Shown: positions 1-57,135 of the stretch, in pieces | Layout: every line of letters starts with the position of its first letter | Position numbering within the stretch: position 1 is the stretch's first letter | Assembly (NCBI RefSeq): GCF_001425235.1 | Contig: NZ_LMEA01000010.1 | Location: 378,275-442,274, forward strand | Direction of reading: 5' to 3' | Length of the DNA: 64,000 bases | From: Devosia sp. Root413D1 | GTDB lineage: Bacteria > Pseudomonadota > Alphaproteobacteria > Rhizobiales > Devosiaceae | The notes under the pieces: model-generated | What the model saw: only the letters and a program-made list of their open reading frames with translations | What the model was told of the DNA's origin: nothing | Databases searched by the model: none | Program-made: the position numbers and the translations under genes

Positions 1-1201
1 GGAACCCCAGCATGGCGGCAGTGGCGCGAGAACCGGGGCGCCAGTTGGTATTGGTCAGGCGGTCTTCGAGGCCCGGCACATAGATCTTGGCCACCCGGAT
101 GCCGAACTGTTCGCCGCCGAGCGGGATGACGACGATGCGATTGAGACCCGCCTTGGCGAGCCCGGCCTGAAGCGCAGCGATCAGCGCGGCCTCGCCGCTG
201 TCGGCTGGCAGGCCCGGGGGCGCCGGCCGCGTGGCTGGCGTTGCTTCGGTCAGCACCGCGATGGAACGGCCGAGCTGCTCGTCGTACTCGCCTTCGACGA
301 TGTCATCGCGCGCCCCGGCAATGTTGGTGATGCGCGTCTGTGCCGCCTCGACGATGGCGCGCCGCGCGGCGACCGCCGCGATGGGGTGGCAGCTGGCGCC
401 GGTCGCGACATCGAAGTGCTTGTCGGCGCCATCGGCAGGAAACAGCGCCGCATAGATGACCGGCACGCCGATATTGTTGGTCTGGTCGAACAGTCGCAGC
501 CGGTAGCCGGCGCGGGCGACCTTGTCGGCCAGCGCGTCCACTGCCGGGTCGCCGAATGCCGCGGGGGAGACGGCGGTGGCCTCGGCCGCGGCATCGGGCT
601 TATAGCTCCACAGGCACACCGCATCGCGCTCAATCACTTCGCAGAGGCCATGCAGCAGTGCGCCGGAGAGGCGCGTCCCGGCAGCAATGCCATTGGTCGA
701 TTGTGACAAGCCGACGAGGTCGCGGGGCGGCGTGCCCAGCACCACTGCGTCATAGGGCACCAGCACCGGCGCACCGGTCGCAAGGTCAAACCCCTCGACC
801 CAGCGAATCGGCTTTGTTTCGTCGATCGCCGCACCGCGCGGCAGCAGGTGCGTTACCTCGAGCAGTTCGAAGCTCCCGGCCCGCGCTTCAGCCATGCTGA
901 GGGTCTTCTGCGGCGTCTCAGGCGCTTCGGCGATGGCGTACTCGGCCGCCTCCATCACCGCCGAGAGCTGGGCCGAAATGTCGTCGACGCCCTTGCCCTG
1001 GTGGGTGGCAAGCGTCGCCGATTGCGGGCGGATGGCGGCGTAGCAGGGGATGCCGATGCGATCTAGCCCGGTCTGGCGGGCCAGCCGGGTGATGCCGAGC
1101 GCGGCAAAATGCAACGACAAATCCCGCAGCAGGGCTGCGGGATTGCGCGTGCCGCCTGGAGCCGTATCGGCCGCCGGGCGGAGCTGGGCTCCGAAATGCA
1201 A
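1..1201 (-). CDS. YcaO-domain peptide-modifying enzyme (3' end cut by window edge)
   Basis: Translation from a TTG at 1201 gives 400 uninterrupted residues that run off the window. YcaO signatures are visible: GLDRIGIP near residue 45, QGKG at 69-71, the glutamate-rich helix SAVMEAAEYAIAE at 80-92, NGIAAG at 170-175, EVIERDA at 188-194 and EAAQTRITNIAGARDD near 285-300. YcaO enzymes use ATP to convert peptide backbone amides to azolines, thioamides or amidines. The family is usually about 400 residues, so only a few C-terminal residues should be missing. The start is uncertain: the stop codon of the upstream 72-residue peptide lies one codon before this TTG in the same frame, and no GGAGG precedes it; later TTG codons lie at 1120 and 1114. 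Translational coupling to the peptide gene is likely. A TfuA-type partner is not in view and could lie beyond the edge. Family assignment is firm; the product is inferred. Confidence 0.85.
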   Translation of the reverse strand, partial: MHFGAQLRPAADTAPGGTRNPAALLRDLSLHFAALGITRLARQTGLDRIGIPCYAAIRPQSATLATHQGKGVDDISAQLSAVMEAAEYAIAEAPETPQKTLSMAEARAGSFELLEVTHLLPRGAAIDETKPIRWVEGFDLATGAPVLVPYDAVVLGTPPRDLVGLSQSTNGIAAGTRLSGALLHGLCEVIERDAVCLWSYKPDAAAEATAVSPAAFGDPAVDALADKVARAGYRLRLFDQTNNIGVPVIYAALFPADGADKHFDVATGASCHPIAAVAARRAIVEAAQTRITNIAGARDDIVEGEYDEQLGRSIAVLTEATPATRPAPPGLPADSGEAALIAALQAGLAKAGLNRIVVIPLGGEQFGIRVAKIYVPGLEDRLTNTNWRPGSRATAAMLGF

Positions 1202-1204
1202 GAC

Positions 1205-1423
1205 TTACTTGGAGGTGTAGAACCAGGCGCCGCTGCCATCGGCGCGATTGCCGGCGGCCACGGCGACGTTGATGCCGTCGACAATGGTGTTGCCCGACTG
1301 CAGCGCGGAGCGAACGTTGGCCGGGACTACGGTGTCCTGGTCAACCGGGGTCACAGTCATCAGCTGGGTATCGACGACCAGCAGCTGCTCAGAGTCTTTC
1401 TGTCCAATAATGACGTAACGCAT
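1205..1423 (-). CDS. 72-residue peptide, candidate RiPP precursor
   Basis: A small ORF lies between the SARP-type regulator (stop 20 bases upstream) and the YcaO gene, with a clear AAGGAG ribosome site (1432-1437) eight bases before its ATG. The protein starts MRYVIIGQ and ends DGSGAWFYTSK. It has no membrane segment and no cysteine. The acidic, hydrophobic N-terminal half could serve as a leader, and the glycine-, serine- and aromatic-rich tail as a core. I do not recognise the family. Its place directly before a YcaO gene, in the same operon and the same reading frame, makes it a candidate substrate. It could instead be a small accessory protein that binds the enzyme. That it is a gene is well supported; the precursor role is inference from context only. 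Confidence 0.6.
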   Translation of the reverse strand: MRYVIIGQKDSEQLLVVDTQLMTVTPVDQDTVVPANVRSALQSGNTIVDGINVAVAAGNRADGSGAWFYTSK

Positions 1424-1443
1424 TGGTATTTCTCCTTGTCGGC

Positions 1444-3402
1444 CTACTTGAAACCGGCCTTATGCAATGCGTCTATATACAGATCGACATCAGAGGGATC
1501 GCGCTGCGGCACTCGGGATAGCCAACGAGCAGTTGTGAAATCCGGTTGCAATCTAAGCGCTTGCAACCGATAGCGGCGGGCGAGGTCCATTTGCCCCGCC
1601 ATCGCGGCAGCGGCGGCCATCAGGCGGTAGGCCGGCTCCGGGTTGCGCATCTGGCTCAGGTTGGCCAGCGCCTCATCGAAACGCCCGCGGAAGAAATTGA
1701 TGCCGCCCAGCGTCCACAGGTACTCATCGGGAGGGATCGGGTTGAGCCGCATGGCGGCTTCGATCTTTTCCTGGGCTTCGCGGTGGTTGGAGTTGTGCGC
1801 CAGGGTATCGGCGAAGTCGGCGAGAATATCGGCGTGGTTCGGCGCGAGCTCGGCTGCCGTCGACATGTGGACCAGGGCCTGATCCAGGTCGCGATCGAAC
1901 AGCGCGACGCGGCCAAGCTCCCGATATGCCGTGCCGTCATTGGGGTCGATCGACACCGCACGCTCGGCATGCAGCTTGGCCTTGTCGAGCAGCGCCTTGT
2001 CCGACCCGGACCTGAGCACCCATTCCACCACATAGGAGCGGGCAAGCGCGCTCTCGATCGTCGCCTGTTCCGGCTCGATGTCGCGGGCAATGCGCAGCGA
2101 CTTGCGACCGCGCCGGACCTTGGGCAGATCGAACGTCCTGAGGTTCTGCCGCCCGGCGAGGTAATGCGAGTAGGCATTGGCGTCGCGCAGCGTACGCTCG
2201 CGCTGCAGCTCGGCCGTTTCGATCGATTCCGCCAGGGCCCGGGCGACCCCGTTGGTAAAGTCCCAGTAGCGCTCGGGCGCGGTCAGCGCCGAGAAGGCGA
2301 ATTTGTCGGCCCAGACGATCTCGCGGCCGGCGGCGCGCACCAGGCGGATGGCGAGCGACAGCCCGTCGCCGGCAAAATGCGGGGCGATGCGGCTTTCCAC
2401 CGCGTAGTCGATCTGGTGCGCTCGTACCTCGTCCAGCGCGGTGAAGGGGTCGAGCTGCCAGGCGGTGTGCGGCGCGATCACCGACAGCGATTTGAGGCGC
2501 GACAGGCCGATGGTCACATCTTCGACCAGCGCCGGCGCCAGGTGCTTGGGCACGCTCGCCTGCTTGAAGTCCTGCAACGGCGGCAGCAGCACCACCCGGG
2601 GCACAAAGCTCACCCGCGCCCGGTCCTCGTCGGCCTGCGGCCGGCGTCGCTCGACGGTGCGCGGTTGAGCGGGAATCGTTTCGTCATCGTGGCCGAACAG
2701 CTCGGCGGTTTCCGCCGCCGGTTCCATGCCCAGGCCATGCCGGAGCCGGTTGCGGAACGCAGCGAAGGCGGCGCGCGCGCCGCTCTCGTTATTCTCCGAG
2801 CGGAACAGTTCGATCGTGGCGCGGCACACCACGTCGGAATAGGGCAGGCGCTCGGCCAGCCGGAACAGCGCCGAATGGGCGCCCCGGCCACCGATTCGCA
2901 ACGCCGCTTCGGTCGCCTGGGTGGAGAACTGGTTCTCGATGCGGGTGCGTTCGAGCGCCAGCCACTGGTCGAATTCGTTGCCGACGCCAATGACGCCGGC
3001 CAGCAGCTCGCCGCGGTAGAGGCCGATCAGCCGCTCGAGCTCGGGCGCATCTTCGGCGCTGCGGACGCGGCCGATCTCGCGCAGGTCGAGCACCACGTCG
3101 CGGTTGAGCTCGATTTCCGTGGCGTCGGCATCGAATAGGTCGAACCCGTATCTACCTTCGAGTTCACGCGTATGCAGCAGGGTCTGCCGCAGATTGGTCA
3201 TCGCCTGTTCTGCAGTGCTGCTTTCCCAGGTCCGTTCCGCCAAAGCCGACCGTCGCGCCCGGTTGGAAAAGTCCAGATACAGCACAGCTGCAAGGGCATA
3301 GGCCTTTTGGCGCAGCTTTACTGCCGAACCGTCCGCCAAGCGGAGGACCGGGGTCCCCAAAAGCTGCAGGGTGACCGTTTCACGCATAGAAGTGATCGGC
3401 AT
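1444..3402 (-). CDS. SARP-like transcriptional regulator with BTAD, TolB-like and TPR regions
   Basis: This is a 652-residue soluble regulator. An N-terminal winged-helix DNA-binding region (about 8-95) is followed by a bacterial transcriptional activator domain rich in helices (about 100-245, with segments such as LYRGELLAG and GLGMEPAAET). A TolB-like region typical of adenylate-cyclase-related regulators follows (about 265-400, starting near RVVLLPPLQDF). The C-terminal third is TPR-like (about 410-650, for example AVSIDPNDGTAYRELGRVAL). SARP regulators often control specialised-metabolite clusters. Here the gene is first in an apparent operon with the 72-residue peptide and YcaO, so it probably controls that locus. 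The start is the first ATG; a second ATG lies five codons on. No cyclase catalytic domain is visible. Confidence 0.85.
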   Translation of the reverse strand: MPITSMRETVTLQLLGTPVLRLADGSAVKLRQKAYALAAVLYLDFSNRARRSALAERTWESSTAEQAMTNLRQTLLHTRELEGRYGFDLFDADATEIELNRDVVLDLREIGRVRSAEDAPELERLIGLYRGELLAGVIGVGNEFDQWLALERTRIENQFSTQATEAALRIGGRGAHSALFRLAERLPYSDVVCRATIELFRSENNESGARAAFAAFRNRLRHGLGMEPAAETAELFGHDDETIPAQPRTVERRRPQADEDRARVSFVPRVVLLPPLQDFKQASVPKHLAPALVEDVTIGLSRLKSLSVIAPHTAWQLDPFTALDEVRAHQIDYAVESRIAPHFAGDGLSLAIRLVRAAGREIVWADKFAFSALTAPERYWDFTNGVARALAESIETAELQRERTLRDANAYSHYLAGRQNLRTFDLPKVRRGRKSLRIARDIEPEQATIESALARSYVVEWVLRSGSDKALLDKAKLHAERAVSIDPNDGTAYRELGRVALFDRDLDQALVHMSTAAELAPNHADILADFADTLAHNSNHREAQEKIEAAMRLNPIPPDEYLWTLGGINFFRGRFDEALANLSQMRNPEPAYRLMAAAAAMAGQMDLARRYRLQALRLQPDFTTARWLSRVPQRDPSDVDLYIDALHKAGFK

Positions 3403-3433: not shown

Positions 3434-3451
3434 TTTACTTGACGAAGTAAA
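3434..3451. promoter_or_regulatory. 7-bp perfect inverted repeat in the SARP-mucR intergenic region
   Basis: TTTACTT and AAGTAAA, separated by four bases, form a perfect inverted repeat 32 bases upstream of the SARP-type regulator start. The AT-rich symmetry stands out from the surroundings and fits a dimeric regulator binding site. It may serve the SARP promoter or the divergent mucR promoter. No experimental basis is available. Confidence 0.35.
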
Positions 3452-3605
3452 GGGCAAAGCGTAGCCACGTAACGGCTAGATAACGCATTGAAGTAAGCTA
3501 CCCAAGCGTGATGCGCTAGCACAATAACTGCGAGGAGGCGCGGAGGGTGGGCCGCAGTGTCCCGCATATAGGACCCGAAACCTAGGCAACAATATCGAGG
3601 GACGA

Positions 3606-4082
3606 ATGGAATCAGGAACATCGAACTTGGCTGCAGCAGCAAACGCGGACGCTAGAGGTTCCCAACTGATCGAACTGAGCGCCGACATCGTCAGCGCCTA
3701 CGTGAGTCATAACGCACTGAGCGCCAGCGACATTCCCAAGTTGATCGCAACGGTGCATGCAACGTTGAGTGGTCTGGGCGGTGCGCCCGAACCGGAAGCA
3801 GTCGTGGAGCTGAGGCCCGCAGTTCCAGTGAAGAAATCGATTACGCCGGAGTACTTGATCTGTCTCGAGGACGGGAAGAAGTTCAAGTCGCTGAAGCGTC
3901 ATCTCAGGACCGAATACGACATGTCGCCGGAAGAATACCGCGCGAAATGGGGCCTGCCGGTGGATTATCCGATGGTGGCGCCGACTTACTCGGAAGCGCG
4001 CTCGCGCCTGGCCAAGACCATTGGCCTTGGCCGCAAGCCCAAATCGCCGGCCGCCCGCGGGCGGGCCAAGATCGTTTCCTGA
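3606..4082 (+). CDS. mucR: MucR/Ros family transcriptional regulator
   Basis: This 158-residue protein has the MucR/Ros fold: a helical N-terminal oligomerisation half (about 15-60, LIELSADIVSAYVSHN) and a C-terminal prokaryotic zinc-finger-like domain (about 80-140) ending in the conserved WGLPVDYPMVAPTYSEAR segment. MucR proteins are nucleoid-associated regulators of surface polysaccharide, motility, virulence or symbiosis genes in Hyphomicrobiales. Two canonical zinc ligands are missing: the second cysteine is Asp89 (CLEDG) and the second histidine region reads RTEYD. C86 and H99 remain. Some family members are known to fold without zinc, so it is probably functional. A GAGGGA ribosome site precedes the ATG and a strong terminator follows. 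Autoregulation is common in the family. Confidence 0.93.
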   Translation: MESGTSNLAAAANADARGSQLIELSADIVSAYVSHNALSASDIPKLIATVHATLSGLGGAPEPEAVVELRPAVPVKKSITPEYLICLEDGKKFKSLKRHLRTEYDMSPEEYRAKWGLPVDYPMVAPTYSEARSRLAKTIGLGRKPKSPAARGRAKIVS

Positions 4083-55602: not shown

Positions 55603-57135
55603 TCAGGTGAGACCGGCTTTCCTCAGGCCCTCAATGATGAGCGCGAAGCGGCCGTCGGAGCGCTGCGCCACGGTCTCGACGCCGGCGATTGACGTGTAGG
55701 GGGCAAAGCTCTTGAGGCGGGCCAGCGTCGCTTGGGCCTCGTCCAGCCGACCAAGATGCGCATAGGCGGCGGTCTGGATCCAGTACGTCGGGGGCCAATC
55801 CATCAGGGTGGCGCGGGAGCGGTCGAGCCAGACGAGCGCGCCTTCGAAATCGTGCATAAAGAAGCGGGCGAAGCCGATGCCGGCGAGGCTTTCGGAGGCC
55901 TCGGGAGCGCCCGGGCTCAGGGTGTAGGCGCGCCTGTAGCAGGCTTCGGCCTTGGCCGGGTCGCCGGCCAGCATGTTGCAGATACCACCCAGCACCTGAA
56001 CGATGACATTGTGCGGGTTGGCGGCGAGCGCCCGGTCGGCCATAGCGAGGCCCTCAGCGCGCATGTTGCCGATGGCAAGCAGCGAGTGGCTGCAGATGGC
56101 CAGCACCAACGGGTCGTCGTCGCCATACTGCAATGCCAACCGAGCCAGCTCGAGGCAACGAGCGACGCCGGCTGTGTCGAGCGCGGTGAGTGCTACCGTG
56201 CCGTGGCGAGCGAGGCTCCATGAGGCATAGGCAAGGGCGGCGGCGTAGTCCGGCTGCAGCGATACGGCGTGCTCGAGGTGGCCTAGCGCCGTCAGGTAGT
56301 CGGCTGGATTGCGGGAGCTGAAGAAGGGCAGGGCGCGGAGGAAGTGGTCATAGGCCTGCGGGTTGTCGGGCCAGCGGCGGCGGGTACGCTCGATCTCGGC
56401 CCGGCGGAGCTGCGGTTCGACGAGGCCGACGACGGACTCGGTGATCTTGTCCTGAAACTCGAAGATCTGGCCCATCTCACCATCAAAGCTCGAGGCCCAG
56501 AGATGGGTGCCGCTGGCGGCATCGACCAATTGCACGGTGACCCGGACCCGCTCGCCGGAGAGCCGGACACTGCCTTCAAGCAGGTAGCGGACGCCGAGCT
56601 CGCGAGCGACCTGGCGAATGTCGGCGGTGCGGTTGCGGTAGGCGAAGGAGGAGTAGCGCGAGACGACGGCGAAGGACTTGAAGCGGCTGAGGGCGGTGAT
56701 CAGGTCTTCGACCAGGCCGTCGGCGAAGTAGTCGCGCGTCGCGTCGCCGCTGAGGTTGACGAAGGGGAGGACGGCGACACTGGGCTTGCCGCTGGCGTCG
56801 GCGGGCGGCGCTTCGGCGGGCGTGGGGGCAGCGCCACGCACCAGCCGGTAGCCGACGCGCGGCACGGTGACGATCCACTCCTCGCCGCCTGGGCGGGAGC
56901 CGAGCTCCTTGCGCAGCGCGGCGATCTGCACGGTGATGTTGCCTTCCTCGACCGTCACACCGGGCCAGACCCGCTCCAGTATCTCGGCCTTGGTGACGAT
57001 CTCGCCCTCAGCCTCGAGCATGGTCTCGAGCATCATCAGGGCCCGCGGCCCAAGCGCCACGGGGTGGCCGTCGCGCCGCAACTCACGGCCCGGGGTCAGA
57101 ACAAATGGGCCGAACCGATGTTGTGCCTCGTCCAT
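55603..57135 (-). CDS. Winged-helix regulator with TolB-like and TPR regions (CadC/adenylate-cyclase-like)
   Basis: The 510-residue protein has an OmpR/CadC-type DNA-binding domain (about 1-95; FGPFVLTPGRELRRDG, VTVEEGNITVQIAALRKELG, VPRVGYRLVRG). A TolB-like domain (about 115-245; SVAVLPFVNLSGDATRDYFADG, GVRYLLEGSVRLSGERVRVT) and TPR repeats (about 260-510) follow. No membrane segment is visible, so it is a cytoplasmic regulator. The middle and end resemble those of the SARP-type regulator at 1444-3402, although the DNA-binding domains differ. ATG 57135 was chosen for the winged-helix start. Targets unknown. Confidence 0.88.
   Translation of the reverse strand: MDEAQHRFGPFVLTPGRELRRDGHPVALGPRALMMLETMLEAEGEIVTKAEILERVWPGVTVEEGNITVQIAALRKELGSRPGGEEWIVTVPRVGYRLVRGAAPTPAEAPPADASGKPSVAVLPFVNLSGDATRDYFADGLVEDLITALSRFKSFAVVSRYSSFAYRNRTADIRQVARELGVRYLLEGSVRLSGERVRVTVQLVDAASGTHLWASSFDGEMGQIFEFQDKITESVVGLVEPQLRRAEIERTRRRWPDNPQAYDHFLRALPFFSSRNPADYLTALGHLEHAVSLQPDYAAALAYASWSLARHGTVALTALDTAGVARCLELARLALQYGDDDPLVLAICSHSLLAIGNMRAEGLAMADRALAANPHNVIVQVLGGICNMLAGDPAKAEACYRRAYTLSPGAPEASESLAGIGFARFFMHDFEGALVWLDRSRATLMDWPPTYWIQTAAYAHLGRLDEAQATLARLKSFAPYTSIAGVETVAQRSDGRFALIIEGLRKAGLT

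Follow-up and report, generated by a model that had tools for sequence, protein, structure and literature searches.

Genes at the left edge of the window

The stretch of Devosia sp. Root413D1 DNA analysed here (the window; 64,000 nucleotides, G000:C10:378275-442274) begins at its left edge with three tightly packed genes on the minus strand, which encode a SARP-type regulator, a 72-residue peptide and a YcaO enzyme, in this order. The regulator gene (1444..3402; 652 residues) is separated by 20 bases from the peptide gene (1205..1423), which starts with the ATG at 1423 and has a ribosome site, AAGGAG, at 1432..1437 (read from 1437 to 1432). Three bases lie between the peptide stop and the TTG of ycaO (1..1201, open to the left), a start that is uncertain, as no clear ribosome site lies ahead of it. 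The window holds all of ycaO except the last residue and the stop. In the left flank the full gene (L003:9996-11201) encodes 401 residues and is followed in the same direction by tfuA (minus strand, G000:C10:377578-378273, L003:9304-9999; GTG start, 231 residues), and the two frames overlap by 4 bases, the YcaO stop lying over the TfuA GTG. The complete locus thus comprises four genes, the fourth of which lies outside the window. A preliminary description of this DNA had proposed a packed, operon-like group of the three genes, with a strong ribosome site for the peptide and perhaps a tfuA gene beyond base 1. Coordinates, gaps and ribosome site bear this out, and the expected PF07812 gene is present.

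We consider it probable that the four genes make up one cassette for a ribosomally synthesized and post-translationally modified peptide (RiPP), in which the 72-residue peptide is the precursor and is thioamidated by YcaO and TfuA.

The regulator is composed of an AfsR/EmbR-like DNA-binding part with BTAD (residues 1-275, approximately), a middle part (approximately 263-430) and a C-terminal TPR part. Pfam models matched for BTAD (30.9 bits, cut-off 22.1) and TPR_2 (37.4 bits, cut-off 27). A profile of 16 relatives, among which BTAD was found in 12 and Trans_reg_C in two (best E 0.0063), matched AfsR (8k60, E 7.4e-11, positions 35-274) and EmbR (2fez, E 2.7e-7). These matches span both the winged-helix DNA-binding part and the BTAD part that mark a SARP. 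Unlike in AfsR and EmbR, a middle part and TPR part follow the N-terminal 275 residues, and the gene is linked to YcaO-TfuA. The middle part is termed TolB-like after the first reading of the sequence, and no TolB model matched it; of the domains in the preliminary description, BTAD and TPR are backed by model matches and TolB is not.

Upstream of the regulator gene lies a conserved block (3434..3484, minus strand) with the palindrome TTTACTTCGTCAAGTAAA at 3434-3451, invariant in all seven aligned Devosia loci, and an 11-base tandem, GTTATCTAGCC/GTTACGTGGCT, at 3463-3484. SARPs bind direct repeats of such period. The block could plausibly be an operator through which the SARP protein regulates its own gene. 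A promoter scan upstream of the gene found no sigma-70-like site. Divergent from the regulator gene is a 158-residue frame (3606-4082, plus strand), possibly a MucR/Ros-like regulator. Another relative by the SARP/TolB-TPR profile (profile positions 223-460) is encoded at 56212-56919 on the minus strand (G000:C10:434486-435193).

The peptide and its relatives

The peptide can be divided into a leader (about residues 1-49), a hinge, GINVAVA (50-56), and a proposed core (about 60-72, RADGSGAWFYTSK), whose boundary is tentative. Of 19 Devosia genomes, 15 have YcaO and 12 have the peptide. All 12 copies lie directly upstream of YcaO with TfuA next, and none of the four genomes without YcaO has the peptide; the copy in G013 is a 19-residue piece cut by the contig end. 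The ratio of nonsynonymous to synonymous polymorphism (pN/pS) was determined for the 10 full-length Devosia copies of one length, excluding the partial copy and that of L043, which has a length change. It amounts to 0.375 overall and to 0.146, 0.62, 0.34 and 0.79 for residues 1-28, 29-49, 50-60 and 61-72, respectively. The first part of the leader is thus constrained and the C-terminal core is loose, as is the middle, 29-49. Together with the position kept in 12 genomes, this means that the peptide is a true gene and no chance frame. An AlphaFold2 model made with 31 relatives has strands at 3-7, 14-18 and 23-26 and helices at 29-32 and 35-42. The predicted local distance difference test (pLDDT) score is 71-82 for the blocks within the first 42 residues and below 50 for residues 65-72, which are predicted to be disordered. 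A match of the window peptide to the Pfam model HCV_NS5a_1b (21.3 bits) is below the cut-off of 27 and was taken as chance, and PHROGs gave no match for three leaders and weak matches for the repeats of L146.

The small gene between regulator and enzymes is not always the same. In three Devosia genomes (G005, G006, G018) YcaO-TfuA is accompanied by different small peptides in this slot. The genome under study itself has a second cassette (G000:C11, L004:9153-12550), consisting of a TolB/TPR protein without the BTAD/DNA-binding part, a 31-residue peptide with TTG start (MNTSSASPKIAQVAKALPALPRIPSRKFFRQ, ending in PRIPSRKFFRQ), YcaO and TfuA. This type, class B, occurs in five Devosia genomes, with the common peptide ending PRIPSRKFF[RK]. 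Because the regulator and enzymes remain constant across Devosia while the peptide in the slot varies, the arrangement follows the pattern of RiPP systems. Two genes after TfuA in the window's locus (L003:7665-9249, minus strand; 377 and 120 residues), neither of which matched Pfam, are shared with just three other Devosia genomes and are therefore not counted as cassette core.

To the order Hyphomicrobiales at large the analysis was extended with 397 genomes, 62 of which have TfuA (75 matches). From the 73 matches outside the source genome, 72 were taken with their surroundings, the partial match G075:C223 being omitted. In 43 of these 72 loci a same-strand TolB/TPR gene lies upstream within 2.5 kb of YcaO, in 41 of them with a SARP N-terminus. 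Most of these loci have a small open reading frame in the slot with the pattern [YFVI]xxxG(x)n[LW]xxxDxxxxTV, followed by G[VI][DN]xAVA and a variable tail. Comparison of the Devosia and non-Devosia peptide profiles with hhalign (probability 97.9, E 3.2e-13, 68 columns) indicates that the leader is homologous to the small peptides in the same slot of other Hyphomicrobiales.

When strong hits are defined by the peptide profile A3 with E up to 1e-4, there are 33 in 32 of the 397 genomes, and every one of these 32 genomes belongs to the 62 that have TfuA. The hypergeometric probability of this overlap is 3e-30, a value that ignores relatedness and comes from a profile of which 11 of 16 rows, the non-Devosia ones, are from these same genomes. 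A SARP-type gene on one side and YcaO-TfuA on the other flank 29 of the strong matches. Of the four others, that in G118 is followed by the contig end, those in G082 (L174) and G440 (L173) are SARP-peptide pairs with no YcaO beside them, and the last is a second, partial match in G440 on the opposite strand. Co-occurrence of peptide and YcaO, which the preliminary description had made a touchstone of its proposal, is thus found both in Devosia (12 of 12 copies) and in the order. Weak leader matches in four genomes without TfuA (G184, G198, G225, G303; E 0.001-0.008), of which that in G184 lies inside a long frame, are excluded from the strong count. Searches at higher ranks gave five genomes with E up to 0.01 among 385 at the class level, the source genome included and the others no better than 1.9e-4, and six with E up to 0.001 among 388 at the phylum level, all of them in Hyphomicrobiales.

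In a midpoint-rooted tree of 91 YcaO proteins, a branch with support 100/99 sets apart a group of 66 rows that contains the proteins neighboured by a SARP gene. An upstream SARP gene is present in 61 of the 66 rows; of the five without it, L049, L118 and L162 are at contig ends and L141 and L151 are not. The leader profile matches 39 of the 66 loci on the SARP side and none of the 25 others; 31 of these 39 had themselves gone into the profile as rows and eight had not. Other precursor-like proteins occupy the same slot. In six loci (L116, L124, L128, L129, L135, L148) the leader is long and apparently unrelated to that of the window, homology being unsupported (hhalign probability 0.8%). These six share a YcaO clade; three of the slot proteins have the conserved end ALxxLxG...AVLSD and contain short repeats that are either collagen-like or rich in Gln (QAGV 9-10 times). 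In L149, L154, L159 and L160 a peptide of 43-47 residues ending in HAL[KR]FR lies between SARP and YcaO, by profile search likewise unrelated to the window leader. Among flanking genes shared by the 66 loci, the most frequent family was found 12 times (ABC ATPase) and the next nine times (a helix-turn-helix regulator upstream), in a comparison whose power is cut by contig ends and a 70-residue limit. No protease or exporter common to the cassettes was found among these flanks, and in 29 loci some same-strand frame starts within 200 bases after TfuA.

Eight members of the leader family end in a tandem array of four to eight core units: RSDAASHIFY in L146 (6 units), R[SN][ED]xAAHILY in L155 (8), RSDAASHHYF in L121 (8), RSxAASHYYY in L126 (5), ESLSAASSHNW in L123 (4), GGLFE in L133 (7) and GGF[FL]E[AV]S in L134 and L137 (4 each). 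Such arrays resemble multi-core RiPP precursors. Matches of L146 to DUF3993 (25.7 bits, cut-off 22.4) and of L146, L135 and L133 to adhesin or FG-repeat models fall within the tandem repeats, leave the leader uncovered and were rejected. The window peptide has a single core; the repeated core typical of the thiovarsolin family is found in its relatives only. From residue 60 its tail, RADGSGAWFY, can be aligned with the unit RSDAASHxxY; this residue is also the best site of a core-motif matrix, as it is in 10 of 11 Devosia copies. This gives a hint that the window core may correspond to one tandem unit.

Enzymes, proposed mechanism and alternatives

YcaO and TfuA are readily assigned to their families (PF02624, 208.5 bits, cut-off 25.7; PF07812, 110.9 bits, cut-off 30). 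The closest solved chains are MJ1094 of Methanocaldococcus for YcaO (6pe3, E 1.7e-25) and 6xp8 for TfuA (E 1.3e-23), and the glutamate-rich motifs SAVMEAAE, LCEVIERDA and EAAQTR are retained in the alignment with MJ1094. Thioamide-forming YcaO enzymes use a thiocarboxylated carrier and a TfuA hydrolase (PMC13063428). Judging from the genes and protein families, thioamidation is the most likely chemistry of the cassette. The preliminary description had left the choice between thioamide and azoline; with the TfuA partner present a thioamide is far likelier and the azoline is disfavoured. L047 (G011:C3) and L040 (G003:C80) each hold a third YcaO frame, which is long (open over 767 and 761 codons, scoring 333.9 and 298.3 bits), has no adjacent TfuA and may be the cyclodehydratase of an azole cluster.

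From the gene order, the families, the homology, the co-occurrence and the leader-core pattern we infer the peptide's role as substrate, the site and kind of its modification, its cleavage, the regulation and the role of the product. In this scheme the SARP protein would turn the operon on, and the N-terminal half of the peptide would form a small leader domain recognised by YcaO-TfuA; behind it come the hinge G[VI][DN]xAVA and, at about 60-72, the proposed C-terminal core. YcaO would activate one or more backbone amides of the core with ATP, and TfuA would supply sulfide taken from a thiocarboxylated carrier; sulfur would thereby replace the amide oxygen, giving a thioamide. The leader would then be removed, probably by general peptidases, since the cassette is accompanied by neither a protease nor an exporter. 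Where relatives have tandem cores, one precursor would yield several products.

Plasmids carry the family as well. With the peptide of L136 as query, 53 plasmid records matched (Rhizobium 25, Sinorhizobium 10, Ensifer 10, Neorhizobium 4, four others); with the window's own peptide no plasmid record did. In annotated records the peptide is listed as hypothetical, and the regulator goes under the names of adenylate cyclase, peptide antibiotic resistance protein, hypothetical protein or BTAD regulator. All eight plasmid loci inspected have SARP and peptide, seven have YcaO, and TfuA is whole in five, broken in one (L195) and not found in two (L191, L194). L195, a Rhizobium rhizogenes plasmid, has two peptide-YcaO pairs in tandem.

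Several observations weigh against a thioamidated precursor. SARP-peptide pairs exist without adjacent YcaO, in L173 (G440), L174 (G082) and, on a plasmid, L194; no YcaO or TfuA match was found in the 13-16 kb around the pair in L173 and L174, L191 is without TfuA, and the TfuA frame of L195 is broken. On the SARP side of the YcaO tree the leader profile finds nothing in 27 of the 66 loci. These are broken, cut or decayed or hold other, unrelated small reading frames, and include Devosia loci of classes B and C, the six with long leaders and the four with HAL[KR]FR peptides. The core motif of the window peptide is equalled by 547 of 20000 C-terminal and 831 of 20000 whole shuffles (p 0.03-0.04), and is thus a weak match. 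Model confidence for the leader is moderate (mean pLDDT 66), Foldseek found no solved fold for it at E up to 0.001, and no typical GG or protease site was recognised in the precursor.

The three SARP-peptide pairs without adjacent YcaO would also fit another function, in which the thioamidated peptide is the ligand of the TPR part of the adjacent SARP protein and the locus serves for sensing rather than as an antibiotic cluster. Besides these pairs, the position of SARP immediately upstream of the peptide in all eight plasmid loci speaks for this, as does its conservation, which at 95-96% exceeds that of the other proteins in the nearest Devosia loci (79-89% for YcaO). In the five class B loci, moreover, the regulator lacks the DNA-binding part and keeps the TolB/TPR part, and TPR proteins are classic peptide binders, as in the RRNPP family. 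Yet SARP-TPR relatives often occur with no such peptide (this genome has 10 matches), no exporter is linked, and the YcaO-less pairs may be remnants. In L173 a transposase-like frame follows the peptide, and both G082 and G440 keep YcaO-TfuA of the SARP clade elsewhere, beside which the SARP gene is truncated (L131) or missing (L141); this fits a split cassette but may also reflect decay. We regard such signalling as unlikely on balance. If true, the core repeats would act as a dose amplifier, and peptide sensing with a logic like that of the RRNPP proteins of Firmicutes, but with a modified peptide, would exist in Gram-negative root-nodule bacteria and their kin.

It is improbable that YcaO-TfuA thioamidates another protein of the cell with the small peptide as a helper, i. 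e. an adaptor or recognition domain. There are precedents for protein substrates, McrA for the archaeal YcaO-TfuA and uL16 for E. coli YcaO (PMC5589413, PMC13063428), and the leader is a small, partly folded and conserved domain. However, the C-terminus of the peptide is the part that changes fastest, and its repetition in eight members is as in multi-core precursors. Scores against the models for the McrA enzymes (TIGR03266, 182.3 bits, cut-off 365; NF033432, 128 bits, cut-off 235.2) and for the uL16-modifying enzyme (NF040716, 11.5 bits, cut-off 700) also stay below the cut-offs, so that the ribosomal substrate considered in the preliminary description gains no support; according to PMC13063428, YcaO enzymes of the uL16 type have no TfuA gene nearby. 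An azoline or azole product without thioamide is highly improbable: YcaO proteins make azolines too and the proposed core contains Ser and Thr, but TfuA is present, the peptide has no Cys, neither a cyclodehydratase partner nor a dehydrogenase was found among the 10 neighbouring proteins scanned, the SagD model for azole/azoline enzymes of the thiazole/oxazole-modified microcin (TOMM) type gave 117.9 bits (cut-off 219.25), and the YcaO C-terminus lacks the PxPxP end that marks azoline-making YcaO.

Relation to known systems

A thioamidated RiPP with a folded leader is the preferred reading, and the Devosia peptide would be made as thiovarsolins are. In the var cluster of Streptomyces varsoviensis precursor, YcaO and TfuA are adjacent and there is no dedicated protease, as in the Devosia cassette; varA, varY and varT alone suffice for thiovarsolin B, and precursors of this type have no to five repeats, which were shown to be product-forming cores (PMC6511847). 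In contrast to Devosia, the thiovarsolin host is an actinobacterium, and excerpts of PMC6511847 name no SARP-TPR regulator in var. The window core lacks the APR unit of thiovarsolins, and the likeness is drawn from gene set and repeats. The archaeal McrA-glycine system has the same enzyme pair and the nearest solved structures but no precursor peptide.

Clusters of this kind in Proteobacteria are already known, which takes back part of the claim that the locus is undescribed. Searching 161,733 bacterial genomes for TfuA clusters, Malit et al. 2021 (PMC8120280) predicted 797 precursor families with RiPPER and named Rhizobium, Agrobacterium, Bradyrhizobium and Sinorhizobium among the hosts; in the Proteobacterial families YcaO lies beside TfuA, as here. 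Its results section mentions neither Devosia nor BTAD, SARP or TPR partners nor the window leader family, although its supplementary precursor lists may include some of these peptides. The literature search turned up no description of YcaO-TfuA together with a SARP/BTAD-TPR partner, the sole match for YcaO and BTAD having BTAD in reference identifiers only, and no Devosia RiPP paper was among the matches listed. The precursor family and the SARP-TPR partner were thus not found described, and this part of the claim stands, with the reservation on the supplement of PMC8120280. According to the same paper, every TfuA whose product is known falls into the same one of two TfuA clades, and the others call for experiments.

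For the organism, a lone hypothetical peptide becomes a member of a probable thioamide precursor family across Hyphomicrobiales. TfuA was reportedly first named from a trifolitoxin producer of Rhizobium. The family sits on plasmids of Rhizobium, Sinorhizobium, Ensifer and Neorhizobium, that is in cultivable and manipulable hosts, and the tandem cores and the four-gene size ease a direct test by mass spectrometry.

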